In this document: in pieces, positions 1 through 17,988 of the stretch
How positions within the stretch are numbered: the first letter of the stretch is position 1
How the letters are laid out: the number at the start of each line of letters is the position of its first letter
Assembly (NCBI GenBank): GCA_023356605.1
Contig: JAKQYE010000037.1
Coordinates: forward strand, 781 to 34,829
Direction: 5' to 3'
From: Trichodesmium sp. MAG_R02
GTDB taxonomy: Bacteria > Cyanobacteriota > Cyanobacteriia > Cyanobacteriales > Microcoleaceae
DNA: 34,049 bases
Notes under the pieces: generated by a model
Database searches by the model: none
Seen by the model: only the letters and a program-made list of their open reading frames with translations
Told to the model about the DNA's origin: nothing
Translations under genes and position numbers: made by a program

Positions 1-2298
1 CAAGCATTAGATATGAGAAAGAAGCTCCTTGGTGCTGAACATCCTGATGTTGCCACCTCCCTCAACAATTTGGCTTTACTGTACAAAACTCAAGGAAGGT
101 ATACAGAAGCGGAACCTTTGTTTATACAAGCATTAGATATGAGAAAGAAGCTCCTTGGTGCTGAACATCCTGATGTTGCCACCTCCCTCAACAATTTGGC
201 TTTACTGTACAAAACTCAAGGAAGGTATACAGAAGCGGAACCTTTGTATATACAAGCATTAGAGATGTTGAAGAAGCTCCTTGGTGCTGAACATCCTGAT
301 GTTGCCACCAGCCTCAACAATTTGGCAGAACTTTACTCAGATCAAGGAAGGTATACAGAAGCGGAACCATTGTATAGACAAGCATTGGAAATGTATAAGA
401 AGCTCCTTGGTGCTGAACATCCTTATCTTGCCACCTTCCTCAACAATTTGGCAGGACTTTACTCTTCTCAAGGAAGGTATACAGAAGCTGAACCTTTGTA
501 TATACAAGCATTAGATATGAGAAAGAAGCTCCTTGGTGCTGAACATCCTTATGTTGCCTCCTCCCTCAACAATTTGGCAGGACTTTACTCAACTCAAGGT
601 AACATTGCCTCAGCAGTGCAATACCTTAAACGCGGCTTAGAAATTCAAGAAAAAAACCTAACTTACAACTTAGCCGCCGGTGCTGAACCTCAAAAAGACA
701 AATATCTCAAAACCATCTCAGGAGCCAAGGGTCTAGCCATCTCTCTCCATCTGCAAACAGCACCAAATAATCCAGCAGCCACAACTCTAGCATTCACAAC
801 CATCCTACGCCGCAAAGGTCGCCTCCTCCAATTCTTCACCACCAGCAGACAAATACTCCGACAACAACTCGACTCTCAAGGACTACAATGGCTAGATGAA
901 CTTAATAATATTTATAGTGAACTTTCCACTCTGCTCTATAACCGACCAAAAAATCTTCCTCTAGAAACCTACAAGGAAAATTTTGCCTTCTTAGAACAAC
1001 AGGCAAAAGAACTAGAAGACAAAATTGGTCGTCGCAGTAGCGAGTTTCGGGCAGCCACCCAACCTGTAACCTTAGAAGCTATTCAGGAGTTGATACCCGT
1101 TAACGCTGCTTTAGTAGAATTTGTACAGTATTCTCCTTTTGACCCCAAGACAAGAACATGGGAAGAGCCACGCTATGGAGTTTACGTTCTAAGTAGAGAG
1201 GGAGAACCCCAAGGCGTCGACCTGGGAACAGTTGAAGAAATTGAATCAGCTATAACATACTTTCGATTTTCTCTACGAGACAAAAAAACTCCCCTAAAAC
1301 AGCTTAAAGATGCAGCCAGAGAGGTTGAAAAAAAGCTGATGGAACCTGTACGTAAACTACTGGGGTCACAGAAACAAATTCTGATTTCTCCTGATGGCGA
1401 TCTTAATTTAATTCCTTTTGAAGCATTAGTGGATGAGAATAAGCGCTTTCTAGTAGAAAACTATAGCTTCACCTATCTAAGCTCAGGACGGGACTTACTC
1501 ACATTTACCTCTACCTCTAGAAACACATCACCAGCGGTATTGCTAGGGGACCCCAAATATGATGAAACAGGAAAAGTAGCTATTAAGCCTCAGGGTAGCT
1601 TCGACGATGCCTCAGAATTAGTATTTCCAAGATTAAAAGGAAGCGGTGAGGAAGTCAAAGCCATTGGTGAGTTGCTTGGAGTTGAACCTTTACTACGGGC
1701 GGAAGCGACTGAAGCAGCGGTCAAACAAGTTAAAAATCCTTTCATATTGCACATTGCTACTCATGGTTTATTTAGAACAGATGGAGATCCTGAAAAATCT
1801 CCCACGATAAATAAAGATTCCCTACTACGGTCAAGTTTAGCTCTGGCTGGGGTTAAGGAGGAACAAATAGATGGGGATAATGGTTTATTGACAGCTTTAG
1901 AAGCTGCCGGACTGAATTTGCTAGGCACAGAGCTAGTGGTATTATCCGCCTGCGACACAGGGTTGGGGGGAATTAGTCCCGGAGAGGGAGTTTATGGATT
2001 TAGACGAGCATTCGCGATCGCAGGTTCCCAGAGTCAAGTCATTAGTTTATGGAAAGTTGATGATCAAGGGACAAAAGACTTAATGGTGAAGTATTATCAA
2101 CGGTTGTTGGATGGGAAAATAGGACGAACAGAAGCCTTAAGGCAAACTCAACTGGAGATGCTGAGGGGAGAAGCCGGGGAAAAGTACACTCATCCTTATT
2201 TTTGGGCGAGTTTTATTCCCTCTGGAAATTGGCTGCCGATCCCTTCCAGGAAAAGTCAACCTTCCCCTTTATCCCCTGCCTCCAAGGGGGGAAATTAA
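1..2298 (+). CDS. TPR-CHAT caspase-like protease, 5'-partial
   Basis: The reading frame is open from base 1, so the gene starts outside the window; the ATG at 13 lies inside a repeat. The N-terminal part is five tandem 42-residue kinesin-light-chain-type TPRs (126-bp units starting at 13, 139, 265, 391 and 517) with the core LNNLALLY and GRYTEAEPLY. A linker follows (about 215-340), then a C-terminal CHAT domain (peptidase clan CD, caspase-like). The catalytic pair is visible: His in HIATHG (codon 1762-1764) and Cys in LSACDTG (codon 1951-1953). Such proteins are thought to be cytosolic proteases switched on through TPR-bound partners; substrate and trigger are unknown. The domain ends normally at FIPSGNWLP, but about 17 Ser/Pro/Lys/Gly residues follow that look like read-through into an intergenic C/G-run repeat. 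No partner gene is adjacent in the window. Confidence 0.9.
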   Translation, partial: QALDMRKKLLGAEHPDVATSLNNLALLYKTQGRYTEAEPLFIQALDMRKKLLGAEHPDVATSLNNLALLYKTQGRYTEAEPLYIQALEMLKKLLGAEHPDVATSLNNLAELYSDQGRYTEAEPLYRQALEMYKKLLGAEHPYLATFLNNLAGLYSSQGRYTEAEPLYIQALDMRKKLLGAEHPYVASSLNNLAGLYSTQGNIASAVQYLKRGLEIQEKNLTYNLAAGAEPQKDKYLKTISGAKGLAISLHLQTAPNNPAATTLAFTTILRRKGRLLQFFTTSRQILRQQLDSQGLQWLDELNNIYSELSTLLYNRPKNLPLETYKENFAFLEQQAKELEDKIGRRSSEFRAATQPVTLEAIQELIPVNAALVEFVQYSPFDPKTRTWEEPRYGVYVLSREGEPQGVDLGTVEEIESAITYFRFSLRDKKTPLKQLKDAAREVEKKLMEPVRKLLGSQKQILISPDGDLNLIPFEALVDENKRFLVENYSFTYLSSGRDLLTFTSTSRNTSPAVLLGDPKYDETGKVAIKPQGSFDDASELVFPRLKGSGEEVKAIGELLGVEPLLRAEATEAAVKQVKNPFILHIATHGLFRTDGDPEKSPTINKDSLLRSSLALAGVKEEQIDGDNGLLTALEAAGLNLLGTELVVLSACDTGLGGISPGEGVYGFRRAFAIAGSQSQVISLWKVDDQGTKDLMVKYYQRLLDGKIGRTEALRQTQLEMLRGEAGEKYTHPYFWASFIPSGNWLPIPSRKSQPSPLSPASKGGN
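13..642 (+). repeat. 126-bp tandem coding repeats (TPR units)
   Basis: Five head-to-tail 126-bp units encode TPRs. Units 1 and 2 are almost identical at nucleotide level; the visible protein change is Phe to Tyr near the unit end. Units 3-5 differ at a few positions in helix A. Identity at silent positions points to recent expansion or gene conversion. More units probably lie upstream of the window. Confidence 0.9.
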
Positions 2299-2620
2299 AA
2301 GTCAGATTTTATCAGCTCACAATAATACAGCGCTTTTAAAATTGATCAACTACATCGCCATAACCAAAACCTTGTAGGGACCTTCCATGCAACCTCCCTA
2401 CAGTGGTCTACCGACATGAAAACTGCTGTAATAAATATGACCATAGTATTGTTAGGAATAAAATACTAGGCTTTTCTTGAATAGGCGATCGCCACAATAA
2501 ATCTAGAATATTCTATTGATCAAAATATAAGAAAAATGAGTAAACTATATGCAGCGTAGTTGTATAAATCCTGTATAATTAATAATATTAATTTCAGCAA
2601 AAATTAATCAAAGAAAAATT
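2299..2620. other. Spacer with one family A element and a HIP1-containing repeat
   Basis: No gene is seen. The spacer holds a family A palindromic element (2326-2430) and, around 2470-2530, a HIP1-containing stretch (AATAGGCGATCGCC, then TAGAATATTCT). The same stretch recurs at about 3418, 3703 and in part at 3988. Confidence 0.6.
2326..2430 (+). repeat. Palindromic element family A, copy 1
   Basis: A 105-bp element starts TACAGCGCTTTT and ends AACTGCTGTA, so the ends form an imperfect inverted repeat. Internally GTAGGGAC and CCCTAC arms form a second stem. Other copies lie at 3466-3570, 3751-3855, 11819-11933 and (reversed) 14145-14252. It has no coding capacity and is MITE-like; the family is described from this window only. 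Confidence 0.8.
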
Positions 2621-3286
2621 ATGATGTCTTCATCAGTTCTAAACTACAATTCAGATCTAAGAAACTATCTCTGGTCAGTAGGGATCAGAGAACCAGAAAT
2701 ACTGAAAAAACTCAGGATAGAAACATTAAAAGACAAAAGTGCGCTTATGCAAATATGCCCTGAGCAAGGTGCTTTTATGGCTAATTTAGTTCGTATAATG
2801 GGAGTAAATAAAGCAATTGAGGTAGGCACATATACTGGTTACAGTTCTTTAGCCGTTGCTTTAGCTCTTCCGGAAAAAGGAACCTTAGTAGCTTGCGATG
2901 TATCTGAAGAATGGACTTCAGTAGCAAAGAGGTTCTGGGAAGAAGCAGGAGTAGCACATAAAATTCAGTTGTTCTTAGCCCCCGCTCAAGAAACCTTACA
3001 AGTAAAAATAGATTCGGGAGAGTCGGGCACCTTTGATTTTATGTTTATCGATGCGGATAAAACTAACTATGAAATTTATTATGAGAAAGGACTTCAACTA
3101 TTAAGAAAAGGGGGTTTAATCATAATAGACAATGTCTTATGGTCTGGAGCAGTTATTAATAATAAAATCAATGATCAAAGTACTGTGGCTTTGAGAAATC
3201 TCAACGATTTAATTTGTAAAGACGAAAGAGTAGATATCTCTATGCTACCTATAGGTGATGGATTAACCTTGGCTGTCAAGAGATAA
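2621..3286 (+). CDS. SAM-dependent O-methyltransferase (COMT/Methyltransf_3 type)
   Basis: A 221-residue class I methyltransferase of the cation-dependent caffeoyl-CoA/catechol O-methyltransferase family, normal in length. Visible motifs: SAM-binding motif I EVGTYTGYSS (67-76); acidic motif ACDVSEEW (91-98) for the SAM ribose; FIDADK (142-147) with metal-binding Asp144; and DNVLWSG (170-176) supplying Asp170/Asn171. It is predicted to methylate a catechol-like hydroxyl in the cytoplasm. Cyanobacterial relatives (Slr0095 type) act on phenolic acids in vitro, but the natural substrate is unknown. Two ATGs stand in tandem at 2621 and 2624, with only a weak purine-rich stretch upstream, so either may be used. 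The gene is isolated on both sides by repeat-filled spacers, so no operon partner suggests a pathway. Confidence 0.88.
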   Translation: MMSSSVLNYNSDLRNYLWSVGIREPEILKKLRIETLKDKSALMQICPEQGAFMANLVRIMGVNKAIEVGTYTGYSSLAVALALPEKGTLVACDVSEEWTSVAKRFWEEAGVAHKIQLFLAPAQETLQVKIDSGESGTFDFMFIDADKTNYEIYYEKGLQLLRKGGLIIIDNVLWSGAVINNKINDQSTVALRNLNDLICKDERVDISMLPIGDGLTLAVKR

Positions 3287-3465
3287 ATTATTAAATTCTA
3301 CAGTAAATCTAACAGGACTTATAAGAGAAGTCAAAAGTCAAAAGTAAACCGTACGAAAAAAACTCTAGAAAATCGTAAAAGCTTTTATCTTGATATTGGA
3401 TTAACCAATATTTCTTAAATAGGCGATCGCCACAATAAATCTAGAATATTCTATTGCTCAAAATA

Positions 3466-4511: not shown

Positions 4512-4627
4512 ATTTTTAGTCATTTCTAGTTTTGTTCGATGAAGTTAACTGTTTAGCCTTGACAAAAAAATATAGAGTGAGTAAAGATAATGGCAATACT
4601 AAATCTTATCAATTTGTAAGGATATCT

Positions 4628-5605
4628 ATGAACACAAGACTTGCTTCAAATGCCCCTGCCAGTGCAGATACCGTTTTATATTCACAGACAGTAGCTACAA
4701 ATCAGGAATTAGCTCCAGACTTAGTTCGTGACTCAAAATTGAACCTTAGAATAGATTATGTCAACAATATGCCATTTGTGTTGGGGGCTGGTTACTTTAG
4801 TGAAACTCCAAATTTAGCCTCCCCAGTACCTGTGGGAGAACAACTATTATTGGTGGATCAGAATGAGGGAATTTATCGCTTTGAAGGTAATAGTGTGTCT
4901 GAGGTTTTTAACATTGATGACGCGCCAGTAGGACTGACACTCGATAATCCACAATTAATTCCTAACCGACAACCAATTCTCAATATTGCTGGGAATGCAG
5001 TTGGTGACAAAGTTATCGTAGTCTATATGTCTTCTACCCTTCCAAAGGAAGAATTAGTTGAGCAAAATTCTTACACCCTTCCAGAGGCTCTCCCCGGAGA
5101 AACAGCTGAGGGGCCTGTGCCTAATTTGTATCAGCTGTCCCCGACATATTATCAGGTGATGTACGAATACCAATTTGACGGAGAAAAACTTTCTAATCCG
5201 AAAGCTATTGCCTCCTTTGAAACGCAAGCTCAACACCACCATGGGGGAGCATTAGAAGTATTGCCAAATGGTGATATTTTATATGCGACTGGAGATGGGC
5301 TGCCATTTGGTTTAGATGGTAGATATGCTCCACAAGATGATAACTCTCACCTGAGCAAAATTCTAATTGTGGACCCTGCCGATGGATCATTTGAAGTTGC
5401 AGCAAAAGGCGTGAGGAATGTCCAACACTTCCAAATTCTTGATTCACCCCAAGATGAACTTAATTTACTTGTTTTTACCGATATCGGAGGGGTGACCGCT
5501 GAGGAAATTAACTCCATATCTTTGTCAGATCTATACAATACAGACGAAATTGAGAATTGTCGGCCTAAATTTTGTGAATATGGTCTGGCCATTTTTGTGG
5601 TTTAG
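4628..5605 (+). CDS. Glucose/sorbosone-dehydrogenase-like beta-propeller protein, probably C-terminally shortened
   Basis: The ATG at 4628 is chosen because AAGGA lies just upstream; the frame extends to a TTG at 4532, but those 32 residues look non-coding. The protein is about 325 residues. The stretch QHHHGGALEVLPNGDILYA, then TGDG and, about 20 residues on, SKILIVDP, matches the H-GG...G.LY..TGD...G.ilr.d signature of PQQ-type sugar dehydrogenase (GSDH) propellers. PQQ binding or enzyme activity cannot be shown. No signal peptide is visible. The protein ends in an odd Cys-containing tail (IENCRPKFCEYGLAIFVV) right before a HIP1 site and a family B element. Full-length GSDH proteins continue further, so the 3' end was probably lost to a frameshift or repeat insertion. 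It could be a non-enzymatic propeller or a dying gene. Confidence 0.6.
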   Translation: MNTRLASNAPASADTVLYSQTVATNQELAPDLVRDSKLNLRIDYVNNMPFVLGAGYFSETPNLASPVPVGEQLLLVDQNEGIYRFEGNSVSEVFNIDDAPVGLTLDNPQLIPNRQPILNIAGNAVGDKVIVVYMSSTLPKEELVEQNSYTLPEALPGETAEGPVPNLYQLSPTYYQVMYEYQFDGEKLSNPKAIASFETQAQHHHGGALEVLPNGDILYATGDGLPFGLDGRYAPQDDNSHLSKILIVDPADGSFEVAAKGVRNVQHFQILDSPQDELNLLVFTDIGGVTAEEINSISLSDLYNTDEIENCRPKFCEYGLAIFVV

Positions 5606-5971: not shown

Positions 5972-8518
5972 CTATAACCAATTACCAACAATAATAAATG
6001 GTGACCAATAATAAGGTATATTGTAATTTGAATTTGGTTCAATCTCTCCTTTGATAAATTTAATTTGAACCTGACGTAGTGCTTCTGCTTTTCTCAGTTG
6101 CGAACTCTTAGACTGCAATAATTGTTGATAAAATTGTTTCATTAATTCTGTTGTAGAGGCATCATGTACCCTCCATAAACTCCCTAAAACACTACGAGCA
6201 CCTGCCCGAACTGCAACTCCAGCCAAACCCAATGCTGCTCGTTGATCTCCAACTGCTGTCTGGCAAGCACTTAAAACTAATAATTCTATAGCTCGATCCG
6301 ATCGCTGCAAATTCTCACTCTGGAGGAGTTTATCGAAATCTCTAACATTAATAGGTTTATCCCATGCTAAAATGAAAGTATCATCAGGATTAGAACTAAA
6401 TTGTCCATGAGAGGCAATATGGACAATGTTAAAGGGCTCAGAATTAATTTTGTCTTGAATATTAATTTCTGTGAATTTTTCATCTATTAATTGCTCAGAT
6501 TGTGGTACCGTTCTGTTAATAGCTTCTATTTCCCGTTTAACGTTAGTTAAACGATGATAGCCTCTCTCTCTATAACTTGGTGCTTCTTTGTCTGTTCCAG
6601 TAGTTAATACTCGCGCTTGCTCTTTTAATAAGGGTTTGGGAGCCAGCAATTCCAAACTCGGAGCCACAACGATCGCGTATCGTTCCACAAGATATCGTGC
6701 CTGTTCACTATCATATAAAACGGACATAGGAATATTTCTTAGTTCTCCTTCCAAAACAAAAACCAGGGTTTTTATTTGACTCGTATCATGTTTGAGATTC
6801 GTTTCCAAATCCGCTTCAAAAGGCTTAATTAACAACTGATAAAGTTGATTTGACTGGGATTTTGTTTTACTTATTAGTTCTGGTCTTATTGGACTCAGTG
6901 TAATATTAACCCTGAGGGACTGCAATAGGTGATTCTCAAATTGGGCTTTAAAGTCACTTTCACTCACGGCAGCATAACGAAAATTATCAGTACCAGGCAA
7001 TTTTAGAATAATACTTAATTGATCCTTAAATAAGATTGGATAAATAACAGCTGCATTCTCATCAATTTGATCAATATTAATATCCTGAGTATTCACACAA
7101 GCATCTTGGAAAAAGTTATCCAATTCTGCTAATTTTAGAGATTCAATTACTCTAACAGCAGTTTTAATATTTGCCACATTAGGTTGATTTGAGTCTAGTT
7201 CAGGCCGGAGTAATAAGTATAGCAATTTTCTATACAAAGGTTCAATAGTAGCACGAAAATCAAACTGAATATCTTGATTTAATCCTACTAAATCCCGTCT
7301 TAAAACTTGGAGGCTATTAAAAGCAGATTTTTCAGCTAAGAGTGCTTCTGAATAATTTCCTTGCTGAATCAAAATATCTCCTAATTGTTCTTGGAGTTTA
7401 TAAGCAATATCAGAAGCAGATATTTTTTGAGCAATAACTAATGCTTTATTTGTCAATTTTAGTGCTTTTTCCAGTCGTTTTTGATTGAGAATAAATTTTG
7501 CCTTAGTGGCAATTCCATCAGCTTCTAAACGGGAATCATTAATATCTTTTGCTTGTTGAATTCCCTGATTTAATAATGCATAAACTGGAATCAAATCAGT
7601 CAAATTTATTTTAAGTTGAGCCCAAGTTGATTGAGGATCTATTTCCTCAAGATCTATGAATATTTTGGCTAAGTTAATTATGATTTTAATTGATTCATGA
7701 GTAGGATTAATTTGATTTAAATAATGAACAATTTTTGGTAGAGTATCAATCTGAAATTCCACATAAGGCTGCAGTAAATTACTCCTGAATACTTGAACCA
7801 ACTGGCTAGATTTAACTAGTAAATTAAGATTATTAATAGTTCCTTGAATTTGAAATAATTTGTCATTAGAAATACTTACAGCTTCTTGATAATTAGATAA
7901 ACTTTGATTAACTAGTTTTTGAAGTTTTTCTTCATCTTGACTACTTCTACGATTAGGATCAAGATTAGCAATATTTTGGGCTTGAGAAAGCATATTATTA
8001 CCTAAATTAATCAACAATTGAGCTTTAGTATTGTTAGAATATACCCACTTCCTACTTGCTTCTAATACCTTTTCAGATAACTCTAATTTACCGACCGCTC
8101 GCAGTCCATTTCCTAAACTTTGTAATCCCTGAAAATTTAGGCTAGTATTTGATGTTTGAAACTTTAGCAGAATATTTTCTAAGTCATTTTCGGTTAAGCG
8201 AAGGCATTTTAAATCATTGCCGAATGCTTCCAAGACAGTATTACAGGAACGTCGATAAAAGCCTAAACTGGTTAAAGCCTTAGCTTGATTAATTTGAGTG
8301 CCGATAATACCAGTTTGATTTTGATTTTGGCGATAGAGTTCTTCTGCTTCTTGCCAAATTTCTAATGCTGCTTCTGCCTTTCCTTGTTGTAATAATTGAG
8401 TTCCTTTTTGAACTAGATTAGCTGCAGAAGATTGAGCTAAAGTAGGAGATAAAATATTAATTCCCACAGTGAAACATAAACTTAATAGGGTAATGGCGAG
8501 CAATTTTATAATCTTCAT
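5972..8518 (-). CDS. Secreted or periplasmic CHAT-domain protease with N-terminal helical repeats
   Basis: I use the ATG at 8518 (about 848 residues). It begins MKIIKLLAITLLSL and gives a good signal peptide ending near PTLAQ; the longer frame from 8560 adds 14 residues ahead of it and overlaps the upstream gene by 19 bp. TPR-like helices run from about 30 to 450 (for example NLVQKGTQLLQQGKAEAAL). The CHAT domain occupies about 560-848, with the catalytic pair His704 in HIASHGQF (codon 6407-6409) and Cys752 in LSACQTAVG (codon 6263-6265), and ends in the typical YYWSPFIIVGNWL. The signal peptide implies that this protease works outside the cytoplasm. It lies just downstream of the haemagglutinin-like gene on the same strand, as is common in cyanobacteria, so the two are probably co-transcribed and functionally linked; the link is inference. 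Confidence 0.87.
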   Translation of the reverse strand: MKIIKLLAITLLSLCFTVGINILSPTLAQSSAANLVQKGTQLLQQGKAEAALEIWQEAEELYRQNQNQTGIIGTQINQAKALTSLGFYRRSCNTVLEAFGNDLKCLRLTENDLENILLKFQTSNTSLNFQGLQSLGNGLRAVGKLELSEKVLEASRKWVYSNNTKAQLLINLGNNMLSQAQNIANLDPNRRSSQDEEKLQKLVNQSLSNYQEAVSISNDKLFQIQGTINNLNLLVKSSQLVQVFRSNLLQPYVEFQIDTLPKIVHYLNQINPTHESIKIIINLAKIFIDLEEIDPQSTWAQLKINLTDLIPVYALLNQGIQQAKDINDSRLEADGIATKAKFILNQKRLEKALKLTNKALVIAQKISASDIAYKLQEQLGDILIQQGNYSEALLAEKSAFNSLQVLRRDLVGLNQDIQFDFRATIEPLYRKLLYLLLRPELDSNQPNVANIKTAVRVIESLKLAELDNFFQDACVNTQDINIDQIDENAAVIYPILFKDQLSIILKLPGTDNFRYAAVSESDFKAQFENHLLQSLRVNITLSPIRPELISKTKSQSNQLYQLLIKPFEADLETNLKHDTSQIKTLVFVLEGELRNIPMSVLYDSEQARYLVERYAIVVAPSLELLAPKPLLKEQARVLTTGTDKEAPSYRERGYHRLTNVKREIEAINRTVPQSEQLIDEKFTEINIQDKINSEPFNIVHIASHGQFSSNPDDTFILAWDKPINVRDFDKLLQSENLQRSDRAIELLVLSACQTAVGDQRAALGLAGVAVRAGARSVLGSLWRVHDASTTELMKQFYQQLLQSKSSQLRKAEALRQVQIKFIKGEIEPNSNYNIPYYWSPFIIVGNWL

Positions 8519-8541
8519 AAATATATAAATTTCATATAAAA

Positions 8542-10284
8542 TTAGATCATACAATAACATATTATGTTGCTTGTAGCATTAGTGGTAATGTTACTGTTTT
8601 TACGCAGGATAAAGTCTTTGTTATTATTGATCGTAATGCTGCCTTGATCCCCAGCTGTGGTTTCAGCTTTTAGCTGTGCTTTATTTTTGATGCGGATGTT
8701 GTTACTGTTGATTATTAGATCACCTGGAGGTTTTTGGGTGGTGGAACTGACTGCAATTTGTGCTTGGTTGCGGAGGTTTAGGCTTTCGGTATAGATAGTT
8801 ATGTTTCCTGCTGCTCCTGTTGCTATGTTACCTCGCACTCGAGCCAATAAACCACTGTTATCCATTTCTATGTTTCTAGCAGAGATTGTTAAATCCCCTG
8901 CATTTCCCTGACCCAAACTAGAGGTAGAAATCAGCGCTCCATTTCCCAGGGTTAAACTTTCTGCAACTTCCACTGTCAACTTCCCTCCATTACCTTTTCC
9001 TATAGTCACTGCCAACAAACCAGTCAAATCCAAATCCCCCCCACCAATTATTTCTATGTCTCTGGCAGAGACCATTAAATTCCCTGCATTTCCCTGACCA
9101 AAGGTAGTGGTAGAAATCAGTGCATCTTGCAGCGTTAAACTTTCTGCTTCTACCGTCAAATCACCAACATCTCCCTTACCAAAAGTATTCACAATAATAA
9201 TACTCGGAATCTTCTTAAAAGAACGGGTAGTCCCACCAATACCACCAATATTTAATGTCAATGAAATATTGTTTTCAAGAGGTTTTGTAGCTTCTACTTT
9301 AATAGACTCAGATGCTTTAATAATTGAAGTCCCTCCATCCTTATCCCCCGAGCTTTGTCCTGTAATTATTGAATTATCTTGCACTTTTATCTGTTCTCCT
9401 CGAATTTGAAATTCTACTCTTCCATTTCCACTCACATCTATAGAACTCTCTTCAGATAGTAGAATTTGGCCAAATTTCAGGTTTTGATCATAGCTAAGGG
9501 TGCCATCGGTAGTTATTCTTACTGCCCCATTCTGAACACTTCCCAACTCAACACGTCCTCCTAGTGATGTGAGATTTCCCCCCCTGAAGAATATATCACC
9601 ACCAAGTAATCCTAAGATTTGGCCTTGAGAAACTTTCAAGCCTAGATTCCGGTTCTCTTTTCCTTCCTCAGTGAAGCTTCTTATGTATTTTGACATATTT
9701 ATATTATGACCTCGACCTTCAACTTGAATACTGCCTGGGTTTTCGGGCAACCTCAACCCAATGGGAACATTAACTGTAAGTAGTGGGGGTGCTTGAGGGT
9801 CTGAAGTGGTAAATTCAAATCCCTTGTTAAATAAGACACTATCGGCAGTAGATCCATAGAAGGAACCTTGGACATCTAGTTTAGCTTCTGACCCAAAGAT
9901 TATGCCTTTAGGGTTAATGAAAAATAAGTCAGCTTTTCCATCTACACCCAAGGTTCCTAATATGTTAGAGGTATTGTCTCCTGTGACGCGAGTCAGGATG
10001 TTTGTAACTCCATCAGGGTTGCTAAAGTAAACCTGTCCTCCCTGTTGAATGTTGAATTCTTGAAAACTGTGGAATAAGTTTGTCCCTCTTTTGGCCCCGC
10101 CATCTATACGATCGCCTTCTATTCCTTTAATATTTATATTCGGTGTGACCACTGAATTTTCTTCTCCTAAAGTATTATCAGGTAAAAGTTGGGCGATCGC
10201 TGGTGAGATATCCACTCTAAAATATCCCAGACTCAAAGATAGGGGAAAAATTATGAGGAATAAATTTTTGTAAAAATGCAGCAT
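8542..10284 (-). CDS. Filamentous haemagglutinin N-terminal (TPS) domain protein, short form
   Basis: A 580-residue exported protein. The signal peptide is residues 1-32, ending at SPAIAQ. It is followed by a TpsA-type secretion domain (about 33-160) with NLFHSFQEFNI, NILTRVTG and the NPNG-box equivalent FFINPKGIIFGS. After that come degenerate parallel beta-helix repeats with recurring GNAGNLMVSARDIEI and GKLTVEVAESLTL cores (about 250-560). Proteins of this type cross the outer membrane through a TpsB/Omp85 partner, which is not in the window. The C-terminus stops abruptly (ITTNATSNIICYCMI), where relatives continue as NATG.GG.I.I repeats, so a frameshift or truncation is likely. The CHAT protease gene follows directly. 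The start ATG at 10284 is the first that includes the signal peptide. Confidence 0.85.
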   Translation of the reverse strand: MLHFYKNLFLIIFPLSLSLGYFRVDISPAIAQLLPDNTLGEENSVVTPNINIKGIEGDRIDGGAKRGTNLFHSFQEFNIQQGGQVYFSNPDGVTNILTRVTGDNTSNILGTLGVDGKADLFFINPKGIIFGSEAKLDVQGSFYGSTADSVLFNKGFEFTTSDPQAPPLLTVNVPIGLRLPENPGSIQVEGRGHNINMSKYIRSFTEEGKENRNLGLKVSQGQILGLLGGDIFFRGGNLTSLGGRVELGSVQNGAVRITTDGTLSYDQNLKFGQILLSEESSIDVSGNGRVEFQIRGEQIKVQDNSIITGQSSGDKDGGTSIIKASESIKVEATKPLENNISLTLNIGGIGGTTRSFKKIPSIIIVNTFGKGDVGDLTVEAESLTLQDALISTTTFGQGNAGNLMVSARDIEIIGGGDLDLTGLLAVTIGKGNGGKLTVEVAESLTLGNGALISTSSLGQGNAGDLTISARNIEMDNSGLLARVRGNIATGAAGNITIYTESLNLRNQAQIAVSSTTQKPPGDLIINSNNIRIKNKAQLKAETTAGDQGSITINNNKDFILRKNSNITTNATSNIICYCMI

Positions 10285-15887: not shown

Positions 15888-16313
15888 TTATTGCATTTCT
15901 TCAGGCATACTTGCTTCCAACTTTAGACAATTTCTACCATCTATTTGCAATTTATACTCTACACGATCCATTAGTCTATTCATAATTAACCATCCATAAC
16001 CACTTTCTTGTTTAGCATCTGGCGTAGGTGGGCTATAATCGCCTGTATCGTAACCTTCACCATAGTCCCAAATTTCCAAAGCAATATCATTATCTTTTAC
16101 TTCTAAGCGTATTAGCACTGGTAAGTGAGGCTTGTCTTTATGAGCATGACGAATCACATTGGAATAGGCCTCTGCAAGTACCAAACGCAAACGGTTCGAT
16201 TGATGAGGCCAATCAATATGTTCTCCCAGCTCTACTTTCAAACTGCTTAATAACCATTGTTCGGCAATAGTTAAAAAAATTAGGTTGCTTGGTACCTGAA
16301 GCTCAGTTTTCAT
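15888..16313 (-). CDS. RsbW-like anti-sigma-factor/ATPase kinase
   Basis: A 141-residue HATPase_c protein. The ATG at 16313 is chosen over the longer frame (16352) because GGAGG lies about 11 bases upstream and it gives 4-bp spacing to the preceding gene instead of an overlap. GHKL motifs: N box LAEAYSNVIRHAH with Glu48 and Asn52, G1 box IWDYGEGYD (83-87), G2-like SGYGW (104-108). It has no dimerisation or transmembrane part, as in RsbW/SpoIIAB-type serine kinases that bind a sigma factor or an anti-sigma-factor antagonist. It is encoded directly after an RsbU-like phosphatase, so it is probably the kinase of a partner-switching module. The antagonist (STAS protein) and the target are not in the window. 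Confidence 0.85.
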   Translation of the reverse strand: MKTELQVPSNLIFLTIAEQWLLSSLKVELGEHIDWPHQSNRLRLVLAEAYSNVIRHAHKDKPHLPVLIRLEVKDNDIALEIWDYGEGYDTGDYSPPTPDAKQESGYGWLIMNRLMDRVEYKLQIDGRNCLKLEASMPEEMQ

Positions 16314-16317
16314 AAAT

Positions 16318-17988
16318 TCACAGAACCTCCAGAGATAATATAGTTTGGTCATCTTCCTGAACTTGATTATCAGCTCGGATATAAGCCAATAAACTATTCA
16401 GGTCTAGTTGGCTTTTATGTTGCTTGAGGAGTTTCCATAAACCTTCTTGTTGCAACATTACACGAGTTTCTACCCCACTATCAGTAAGTTCTTGAACTAC
16501 TGTAGCTTCAGTAATGCCATCACTGGTCAGCAGAAATACGTCTCCTGAGTCCAAGTCTACAGTACCTGCTTTGCCTCTCCATATTGGCAATATTCCTAGG
16601 GGGATACCACGATCTTTAAGGAAATTGGGTACTTGCTCAGAACCTGTGTTTCCACTGGTTGGCAATGCGGTTCTAGACCAGACTAGGGGATATATATGGC
16701 CAGCATTAGCATAGGCTAATGAGCCAGTTTCTGGCGTATAACGAGCCAATACCATTGTAATGAAACAATTATTACTAATTAGATCGTCTGAAAGACTACT
16801 GTTAAGATTTTGCATGACTTCGTAGGGTTCTGCGGGATTTTCTTGAGAAAGTTCTCGTCGCATCACAGAAATAGCACTAGCCATGAATAAGGCAGCAGGC
16901 ACTCCCTTGCCAGAAACATCACCCAATGCTAGCCATATTTCCCCTTGAGGGTGAGTATAAACTTCAAAAAAATCACCTCCTACTTCTCTGGCTGGATAGC
17001 AACAAGCCTGTATCCTGAACCTATCAAAATCTGGCCAACTTTGGCGCAATAAGTTGCTTTGTATCTGACGAGCTACTTCTAACTCATTACTCATTTGTTC
17101 AGCAAGTTCCCTGGTACGCTGATATAGCCTGGCTTGGGATAATGCTAAGGCTGCTTGCTGTAAGACACTTTTTATAAACTCTATATCTTCTGAAGACCAG
17201 AAGTTATTTCTGTTTTCTTGATTAAGGGCTAAAACTGCTAATAGATCTTTCTGGTAAATTAGAGGGACTATTAATTTGCAACTGTTTTTATTTGAACCTT
17301 CTTCAAAGTAGGTTTCACTACTTTGTACTACTTGCAATAATAATTCTTCTAGTTTTTTATTGATGGGAAAGTTGTTCTCTGCACTCTCAGGGCTTTGATA
17401 AGAAACAGGTTTAGATATTAGGTGATCGCCTGATACTGGCCATAATATTCCTTCTGTTGCTCTAAAAGTTCGTCCTACTGCCTGAACTATCGTTGATAAC
17501 ATACTAGAGTAATCCAATGATTCTCTAATCGCACTCATTACTTCATTCACAATAGACTCACGTCGCAGAGCCAGAGTCAAAGCATCTGTTCTTTGCTTCA
17601 CCATTTTGTAGGTTTCTGAAGCTTGTTTAACTACTACTTTTAATTCTTCTGGATTCCATGGTTTTGTGATATACTTAAATACTTTACCTGAGTTAATTGC
17701 TTCTACTAAATCCTCTACATCTGTGTAGCCTGTAAGTAGAATCCTAACTGTGTTTGGAAATATTTCAAAGGTTTTGCCTAAAAACTCTGTACCATTCATT
17801 TCTGGCATTCTTTGGTCAGAGATAATCAGTGCCATTTCTCCTTCTGCTTCTAAAACGTCCATTGCAGTGAAGGCACTATCAGCTTTATACACTTTAAAGT
17901 CTCGCCGAAACGTCCTGTACAACAAATCTAGGTTATCTGGTTCGTCATCGACAACCAGCAATTTGAGTTTCTTGTCTTCCCAACTCAT
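16318..17988 (-). CDS. Response regulator with GAF and PP2C-type (SpoIIE) phosphatase domains, RsbU-like
   Basis: A 556-residue cytosolic protein. An N-terminal receiver domain (about 8-125) has the acidic pocket Asp14-Asp15, phospho-acceptor Asp58 in IISDQRMP and Lys109 in ITKPW. A helical linker leads to a GAF domain (about 150-290). The coiled-coil EVARQIQSNLL (about 304-314) leads into a C-terminal PP2C/SpoIIE phosphatase (about 315-556) with metal-binding GGDFFEV (337-343), GDVSGKG (356-362) and LLTSDGITEA. The likely role is dephosphorylation of a STAS antagonist when a sensor kinase phosphorylates Asp58 or the GAF ligand binds. It forms an operon with the RsbW-like gene, 4 bp downstream. 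No cognate histidine kinase is nearby. Confidence 0.92.
   Translation of the reverse strand: MSWEDKKLKLLVVDDEPDNLDLLYRTFRRDFKVYKADSAFTAMDVLEAEGEMALIISDQRMPEMNGTEFLGKTFEIFPNTVRILLTGYTDVEDLVEAINSGKVFKYITKPWNPEELKVVVKQASETYKMVKQRTDALTLALRRESIVNEVMSAIRESLDYSSMLSTIVQAVGRTFRATEGILWPVSGDHLISKPVSYQSPESAENNFPINKKLEELLLQVVQSSETYFEEGSNKNSCKLIVPLIYQKDLLAVLALNQENRNNFWSSEDIEFIKSVLQQAALALSQARLYQRTRELAEQMSNELEVARQIQSNLLRQSWPDFDRFRIQACCYPAREVGGDFFEVYTHPQGEIWLALGDVSGKGVPAALFMASAISVMRRELSQENPAEPYEVMQNLNSSLSDDLISNNCFITMVLARYTPETGSLAYANAGHIYPLVWSRTALPTSGNTGSEQVPNFLKDRGIPLGILPIWRGKAGTVDLDSGDVFLLTSDGITEATVVQELTDSGVETRVMLQQEGLWKLLKQHKSQLDLNSLLAYIRADNQVQEDDQTILSLEVL

Follow-up and report, generated by a model that had tools for sequence, protein, structure and literature searches.

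Does the adjacency of a gene for a TpsA-type exoprotein and a gene for a caspase-like CHAT protease in Trichodesmium sp. MAG_R02 reflect a functional link, and if so, what does the protease do? The two genes lie on the minus strand of a stretch of 34,049 nucleotides, called the window below (contig C301, JAKQYE010000037.1, bases 781-34829; the genome comprises 6.77 Mb in 537 contigs). The caspase-like (CHAT) family in cyanobacteria is linked to cell death and defence. It is also known there for heterocyst regulation via HetF (PMC10811720; here and below, literature statements refer to excerpts of the cited papers). The pairing is not accidental, because it recurs with a specific strand and order and because real fusions exist. 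With middling confidence, we interpret it as a variant of two-partner (type Vb) secretion (TPS) that recurs in cyanobacteria and includes a dedicated third partner, an exported TPR-CHAT cysteine protease of clan CD that would process, release or quality-control its own TpsA and may also feed a sensor.

The TPS profile was searched in 40 genomes including that of MAG_R02, and 39 had a match. The sample centred on TPS consisted of 87 regions from 31 related genomes with 88 TPS units. A CHAT domain is fused to six of these units and is encoded downstream on the same strand within 3 kb of 35 others, which makes 41 of all 88. If only usable units are considered, that is, those in which a CHAT was detected or the sequence extends at least 2 kb downstream (a definition slightly favouring positives), the fraction is 41/73. 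As controls in the same regions, same-strand CHAT genes were observed upstream of 2/73 units and opposite-strand CHAT genes near 4/88. With a slightly wider limit, a fused or downstream same-strand CHAT is present in 42 of the 87 regions and 19 of the 31 genomes. The first-pass annotation of this DNA had proposed that a lack of conservation in other genomes would refute the pairing; the neighbourhood survey, by the count among usable units, went against such a refutation.

The scan centred on CHAT covered close relatives of the window protein and yielded 43 named loci, all cyanobacterial by title. Among the 28 loci that keep CHAT intact and extend 3 kb or more upstream (near-duplicates L150/L166 and L139/L144 all counted), 19 have TPS or TpsB upstream, three are fused and six have neither, so that 22/28 are linked. 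Of the six plasmid regions opened, out of 66 matching records, five have a hemagglutinin gene annotated ahead of CHAT. These are the regions of Pseudanabaena ABRG5-3, Anabaena cylindrica PCC 7122, Trichormus variabilis ATCC 29413, Calothrix brevissima NIES-22 and Nostoc C052, the last with an opposite-strand gene in between. The MAG_R02 genome contains 32 CHAT matches (30 above the cut-off) and five TPS matches, and all five of the latter are within or beside a CHAT context: the window pair, a TPS gene followed by a CHAT start at the contig edge (C235), a TpsB-TPS-CHAT row (C457), one TPS-to-CHAT open reading frame (ORF) of 1758 amino acids (C35), and TPS and CHAT in line but separated by a run of N (C49). 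Across the phylum, matches to a Prochloron TPS-TPR-CHAT fusion at E <= 1e-100 were found in 49 of 194 genomes, that of MAG_R02 included, nearly all of them over the TPR-CHAT part.

Eleven CHAT ORFs are continuous with TPS, and in the other 56 of the 67 linked loci CHAT stands as a protein of its own and usually carries a signal-like N terminus. The fusion counts come from our own ORF scripts; frame lengths reported by the searches were rejected (in one check, 1764 amino acids were reported against 858 from stop to stop). The Prochloron fusion (L152) consists of TPS, repeats, TPR and CHAT, and a fusion from the MAG_R02 genome (L017) of TPS, repeats, a long Ser/Gln/Glu-rich linker and CHAT; no internal signal peptide was visible on reading in either. 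A third ORF, of 2363 amino acids, encodes TPS-TpsB-CHAT (L041). It was not used for topology, as its TpsB-CHAT joint carries an internal methionine and a signal-peptide-like stretch and may represent a lost stop codon. TPS and TpsB are fused in nine ORFs (L020, L041, L046, L057, L070, L084, L137, L139, L144), and all nine are followed by CHAT on the same strand: in the same ORF in L041, as a gene start at the contig edge in L020, at 3,057 bp in L084, and within about 1.6 kb in the other six. Of these, L137, L139 and L144 came from the CHAT-centred scan and are hence biased. In a tree of 101 CHAT domains, the label "linked" requires 22 changes, 17 of them forced by well-supported branches, against a shuffled mean of 33.7. 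The linked domains are thus clustered beyond the shuffles, yet they do not form one clade, and therefore we make no claim of one common origin or of how many gains there were. The label "fused" requires seven changes, and therefore fusion is scattered.

The window copy was compared with two further copies of the cassette in the same genome, on contigs C235 and C327. Its features, all on the minus strand, are as follows.

8542-10284, minus: TpsA-type exoprotein gene, 580 amino acids, C-terminally truncated (ORF list, profile search, alignment to C235)
9472-10194, minus: TPS secretion domain, residues 31-271 (PF05860, 183 bits; TIGR01901, 91 bits)
8575-9471, minus: region after the TPS domain, residues 272-570 (alignment to the C235 TPS-TpsB fusion)
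8545-8574, minus: out-of-family tail TSNIICYCMI, containing the deletion junction (alignment and DNA comparison with C235 and C327)
8519-8541, minus: spacer from the TPS stop to the likely CHAT start (sequence)
5972-8518, minus: predicted exported-type TPR-CHAT protease gene, 848 amino acids from ATG 8518 (profiles, alignment, AlphaFold model)
8435-8518, minus: signal-like N terminus of the CHAT protein, 28 residues, LSPTLA then QS (heuristic)
7079-8428, minus: helical TPR-like solenoid, residues 31-480 approximately (AlphaFold model; TPR_12; LGN TPR domains, Z 22-24)
5981-6853, minus: CHAT domain, residues 556-846 (PF12770)
6407-6409, minus: predicted catalytic His704 codon (invariant in 33/33 aligned proteins and 66/66 complete linked or fused domains)
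6263-6265, minus: predicted catalytic Cys752 codon (same evidence, 33/33 and 66/66)

Both ORFs were recovered at the coordinates given in the first-pass annotation, and its description of an adjacent minus-strand pair, TpsA-type then CHAT, held; both domains were found by profile. The TPS stop codon occupies 8544-8542, and 23 bp separate it from the CHAT ATG at 8518. The CHAT frame is open from 8560, but the likely start is the ATG; numbering from it gives the same residues, His704 and Cys752, that had been reported as an intact pair, and the dyad is indeed present. The annotation had also assigned signal peptides to both proteins. Signal-like N termini do exist on both, recognised by eye in the TPS protein (MLHFYKNLFLIIFPLSLSLGYFRVDISPAIA followed by Q) and by a crude heuristic of our own in the CHAT protein (MKIIKLLAITLLSLCFTVGINILSPTLA followed by Q), and to that extent the assignment stands. 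Lack of a predicted signal peptide on the CHAT protein had been named as a further refuting condition; by this crude rule the outcome goes against refutation here as well.

The upstream protein has a TPS domain after its signal-like N terminus, as in TpsA (type Vb) proteins, with a Pfam match to PF05860 and a TIGR01901 (adhes_NPXG) score above the family cut-off. The window contains no cognate TpsB gene, and tblastn detected no TpsB remnant there; three TpsB matches lie elsewhere in the genome. The C-terminal T-G/S-R/K-G-G motif of many cyanobacterial TpsA proteins, a common rather than universal module, is also absent from the window TpsA. The reason is seen in C235, where a single ORF of 1408 amino acids (L020, 436-4662, minus strand) has TPS at its N end and TpsB at its C end; behind it the contig breaks off within the first part of a CHAT gene, which shares 87% identity with window CHAT residues 1-99. 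The window TPS protein aligns with this fusion up to residue 570 at 55% identity (383/700 alignment columns, gaps included). The alignment runs to NSNITTN, after which the window has TSNIICYCMI and a stop; these last ten residues lie outside the family and are mostly translated spacer. In the DNA comparison, similarity to the inside of the C235 gene stops at about 8568, and at about 8561 similarity begins to the sequence just ahead of CHAT in C327, which places a deletion junction between. Compared to C235, about 2.2 kb are missing, namely the TpsA C terminus and TpsB. Three Trichodesmium contigs, two of MAG_R03 and one of MAG_R04, start within the TpsB gene, so that the TPS portion falls outside them; in each, about 60 bp separate the TpsB stop codon from the CHAT start. 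In Okeania SIO2C9 (L137), a TPS-TpsB ORF of 1684 amino acids ends 1.6 kb upstream of CHAT. Upstream of CHAT in C327, neither TPS nor TpsB was found within 530 bp, where the contig ends. On this sequence comparison, the window pair is a deletion derivative of a TPS-TpsB-CHAT arrangement. The statement that no TpsB lies nearby was thus correct, and the cause would be a local deletion of about 2.2 kb, as related copies have TPS and TpsB in one polypeptide before CHAT; the truncation of the TPS ORF had been overlooked.

The downstream protein matches PF12770 (CHAT) with 210 bits, the cut-off being 24, and has one TPR_12 match. The predicted His-Cys dyad of CHAT clan-CD cysteine peptidases is invariant in 33/33 aligned relatives. 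By context, complete domains retain it in 66/66 linked or fused cases, 17/17 cases of unknown context and 17/18 free ones (the linked CHAT of L034, split over two ORFs, was left out of the 66 for length). An earlier count of 55/67 by regular expression was set aside, as the expression misses variants; alignment of complete domains gives the numbers above. A free CHAT protein on contig C4 of the same genome (L022, 3867-6797, plus strand) has a signal-like N terminus and has lost both catalytic residues. By the same crude rule, 50 of the 56 linked CHAT ORFs that are separate from TPS have a signal-like N terminus, against 5 of 13 CHAT ORFs of the MAG_R02 genome taken as a control (16 ORFs recognised, 13 of them with a complete 5' end; the window protein belongs to both sets). 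This supports the prediction that the window protein is of the exported type, as far as a crude signal rule allows.

The AlphaFold model of the window CHAT protein, based on 33 sequences, has a mean predicted local distance difference test score (pLDDT) of 82.7 and a predicted template modelling score (pTM) of 0.76, and consists of a helical solenoid followed by the CHAT domain. It matches the TPR-CHAT subunit of Craspase (7y84_C) with Z 29.4 over 578 residues (root mean square deviation, rmsd, 7.9), separase (5fby) with Z 23.7 over 320 residues (rmsd 3.6), and TPR domains of LGN with Z 22-24. In the model, the protein would thus resemble Csx29 of Craspase and separase (Z 29.4 and about 23-24, respectively) in having a TPR or helical solenoid before a CHAT or separase-type domain. 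It differs from Csx29 in its score of 27.6 bits with NF041237, where the cut-off is 300, and in being of the predicted exported type. Among five Trichodesmium copies (ten pairs, mean dN divided by mean dS), the ratio of nonsynonymous to synonymous substitution rates (dN/dS) is 0.44 for the CHAT domain and 0.76 for residues 31-330, and therefore the catalytic part is better conserved than the solenoid. Among named genomes, the closest relatives of the window CHAT are found in Trichodesmium MAGs, Okeania and T. erythraeum. A T. erythraeum contig (L117) matches the O-methyltransferase region of the window (2581-3313) at 94% DNA identity and continues into a CHAT gene, ending inside it.

Taken together, gene order, fusion and export type suggest an extracytoplasmic partnership of CHAT with its own TpsA; given the recurrence of the pair, sometimes fused, the protease probably works on or with the adhesin. 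TpsA, TpsB and CHAT would be exported by Sec, and TpsB would carry TpsA across the outer membrane. The CHAT protein would reside in the periplasm or at the surface, where its TPR solenoid could recognise its own TpsA and its CHAT domain cut it. The cut may serve to free TpsA from TpsB where the two form one polypeptide, to trim or release TpsA, or to remove stalled chains. As for the window copy, its CHAT gene is intact and its private amino acid changes do not outnumber those of the closest paralogue, so that the protein may act on the paralogous fusion protein of C235; alternatively, a TpsB encoded elsewhere may serve the TpsA stub in trans.

LapG is a cysteine peptidase of a fold other than that of CHAT. 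This periplasmic protease cuts the C-terminal tail of the TpsA adhesin CdrA in Pseudomonas aeruginosa and so releases CdrA (PMC5422565). As a protease acting on a TpsA, it is one of the nearest working models for the proposed role. The other is the Bordetella protein FhaB, whose prodomain is degraded stepwise by DegP, CtpA and SphB1 in the periplasm and at the surface (PMC8263021); these proteases belong to other families, with no CHAT among them. According to a review (PMC5422565), the SphB1 gene lies outside the fhaB-fhaC locus, and maturation-protease genes appear to lie outside TPS operons, whereas in the cyanobacterial pair the protease gene follows the TpsA gene or is fused to it. Through the recurrent TPS-CHAT pair and its fusions, the caspase-like family acquires a specific candidate substrate and a putative extracytoplasmic location, and many cyanobacterial CHAT genes become testable. 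CHAT, TPS and TPR-CHAT are known families; what is filed here as new is their pairing as a variant of type Vb secretion, the window itself being a degraded copy. No description of the pair was found in the literature searched, which comprised openly licensed PMC papers and is weak evidence of absence.

Several observations weigh against a dedicated processing protease. There is no fused or downstream CHAT at 32/73 usable TPS units, and therefore TPS secretion in general does not need CHAT. Six of the 28 CHAT-centred loci have no TPS or TpsB upstream: a CHASE2 gene lies near CHAT in L157 and L158 and a DUF928 gene in L163 and L169, L135 has a TPS fragment farther upstream, and L149 shows nothing by the profiles used. 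The sixth plasmid region, that of Pseudanabaena PCC 7367 (H8), has no hemagglutinin beside CHAT. The dN/dS of the whole CHAT protein is 0.49-0.67 between single pairs, which is high for an enzyme. A conserved C-terminal T-G-x-G-G-L-P motif of TpsA was considered as the cut site, as in some fusions T-G-R/K-G-G-L-P lies where TpsA passes into TpsB or CHAT, and it resembled a basic P1 site. This candidate was rejected: the motif occurs in 37/47 unlinked and 30/40 linked TpsA proteins and in 2/10 CHAT fusions, and the position preceding GG holds not only basic residues but also T, S, G, H, Y, Q or P. We likewise dropped the proposal that CHAT is needed more by TPS-TpsB fusions than by unfused TPS, the difference (5/6 against 41/90, p = 0.10) being not significant. 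Finally, the window copy may not work as a pair, because TpsB is gone and TpsA is truncated.

This last point leads to the alternative that survives best, which concerns the window alone: the pair would be a non-functional remnant, its TpsA stub no longer secreted since the deletion and its CHAT gene simply left over. The truncation of TpsA and the loss of TpsB agree with it, and a broken CHAT gene does exist in T. erythraeum GBRTRLIN201 (L121/L171). However, the window CHAT ORF is full-length with its dyad intact. With Okeania as the outgroup, it has 61 private amino acid changes and the C327 copy 65, and therefore it is not decaying faster than C327. The TPS parts of the window and C235 give a dN/dS of 0.33, although this mostly reflects time before the deletion. 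We consider a remnant possible, if on balance doubtful.

The second alternative concerns the neighbours that many TPS-CHAT regions hold, namely DUF928, a CHASE2 protein and sometimes DUF1822 and a sigma-like protein. DUF928 or CHASE2 was found in 23/42 TPS regions with CHAT and in 7/31 of those without CHAT and at least 12 kb long (Fisher p 0.008; 4/14 in shorter regions without CHAT). Of the six plasmid regions, three have both DUF928 and CHASE2 and three lack both. The MAG_R02 genome has only three DUF928 matches and four CHASE2 matches, one CHASE2 being broken. One adjacent DUF928-CHASE2 pair stands beside TpsB-TPS-CHAT on C457, whereas the other two (C155, C76) have no TPS or CHAT match nearby. 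DUF928 ORFs are signal-like in 41/51 cases, near-copies included. The DUF928 model (mean pLDDT 74.2) is a beta-sandwich with helices, and its best match is the C-terminal domain of MtxA (Z 10.6, rmsd 3.9, 150 residues aligned), from which we infer no function. The CHASE2 proteins beside TPS-CHAT loci (L019, L028, L036, L052, L062, L150, L193 and others) have six kinds of output by Pfam: an N-terminal CHAT (e.g. L063, L150, L170), an N-terminal Peptidase_C14 (L019, L102), histidine kinase (L028, L048, L097), SpoIIE phosphatase (L036), adenylate cyclase (L052, L157) and GGDEF (L062). L106 and L167 have CHASE2 alone, and L110 and L189 match our own profile with no Pfam CHASE2. Among four sigma-like proteins scanned, one is above the TIGR02937 cut-off, two are below it, and one has no match although NCBI annotates it as sigma-70. 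In L189 (contig C323 of MAG_R02), a CHAT-bearing protein, DUF1822 and a sigma-like gene stand in a row without a TPS match, that is, the regulatory part alone.

These neighbours could mean that the system is mainly a surface sensor, in which CHAT cuts TpsA or an incoming ligand, the neighbouring CHASE2 receptor reads the signal, and its outputs together with the DUF1822 and sigma-like genes alter expression. The enrichment near CHAT, the C457 arrangement, the signal-like DUF928 proteins and the signalling or caspase outputs of CHASE2 all point that way. On the other hand, 19/42 TPS-CHAT regions show neither DUF928 nor CHASE2 within their limited flanks, the window has none of DUF928, CHASE2, DUF1822 and sigma-like genes, half of the plasmid regions and two of the three pairs in the MAG_R02 genome do not fit, and the direction of information flow is itself conjectural. 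We thus consider a mainly sensory role unlikely. Slightly better, but still tentative, is a combined form: the full row TpsB-TpsA-CHAT-DUF928-CHASE2, sometimes with DUF1822 and a sigma-like gene, would be a tripartite type Vb system with an outside-in pathway, where surface proteolysis of the adhesin is read by CHASE2 and passed to a kinase, cyclase, phosphatase or intracellular caspase output.

Thirdly, CHAT could be an effector, a C-terminal toxic protease brought by TpsA to other cells or grazers in the manner of CdiA. CHAT does form the C-terminal domain of the TPS protein in the fusions, and caspase-like domains of polymorphic toxins are described both as releasing peptidases and as toxins (PMC3482391). 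In those systems, as perhaps here, a clan-CD domain acts on the secreted polypeptide that carries it; however, Table 1 of that survey gives HINT as the only processing protease for type V secretion, and CHAT is not mentioned in the text examined (PMC3482391). Moreover, CHAT is separate in most linked loci, usually with its own signal-like N terminus, its domain is conserved rather than polymorphic, and PADLOC has no match for the pair (0 families at E 0.01 for both window proteins). A delivered effector is therefore quite improbable. The proposal of a cell-surface death or defence module in the first-pass annotation received no direct support, given the same PADLOC result and the nature of the recurrent neighbours (DUF928, CHASE2, DUF1822, sigma-like). 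HetF and all2170 are placed in pfam12770 (PMC10811720), the Pfam domain that the window protein also has. In phage-resistant substrains of Nostoc 7120, an FHA-domain gene is mutated in RD5 and the CHAT gene all2170 in another, a double mutant; all2170 is tied to heterocyst loss in the double mutant (PMC10811720). As the best reading of these sequences, adhesin processing or release by CHAT would be the first choice, sensing the second and a delivered effector the third; proteolytic processing of the adhesin had also been proposed in the first-pass annotation.

A fourth alternative, that the deletion is an assembly error and the true locus has a full TPS-TpsB fusion before CHAT, is suggested by the 537 contigs and the repeated cassette (C235, C327), but the window contains no N and the joined points share few bases in related copies, probably below assembler overlap, so that we regard it as very unlikely.

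Some other features of the window were observed. A second, different CHAT gene (13-2298, plus strand) lies about 3.7 kb away on the other strand. It has TPR_10 repeats and a CHAT domain of 271 bits, shows no signal-like N terminus by our rule, and in the tree lies well apart from the exported group. Between the two CHAT genes there is a TTG-start ORF of 357 amino acids (4532-5605, plus strand) with no Pfam match. At 15888-17988 (minus strand), an HATPase_c_2 gene (15888-16352) overlaps a gene for a response regulator-GAF-SpoIIE phosphatase (16318-17988), which resembles a partner-switch pair. A dispersed short repeat, GTAAGTCCTGA, occurs at 17 places in the window with at most one mismatch, whereas 0.33 are expected (e.g. 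5625, 5708, 10317, 10374, 10585). Its copies flank the TPS-CHAT cassette on both sides, one of them near a CGCTATATATAGCG palindrome, and it is perhaps similar to miniature inverted-repeat transposable elements.

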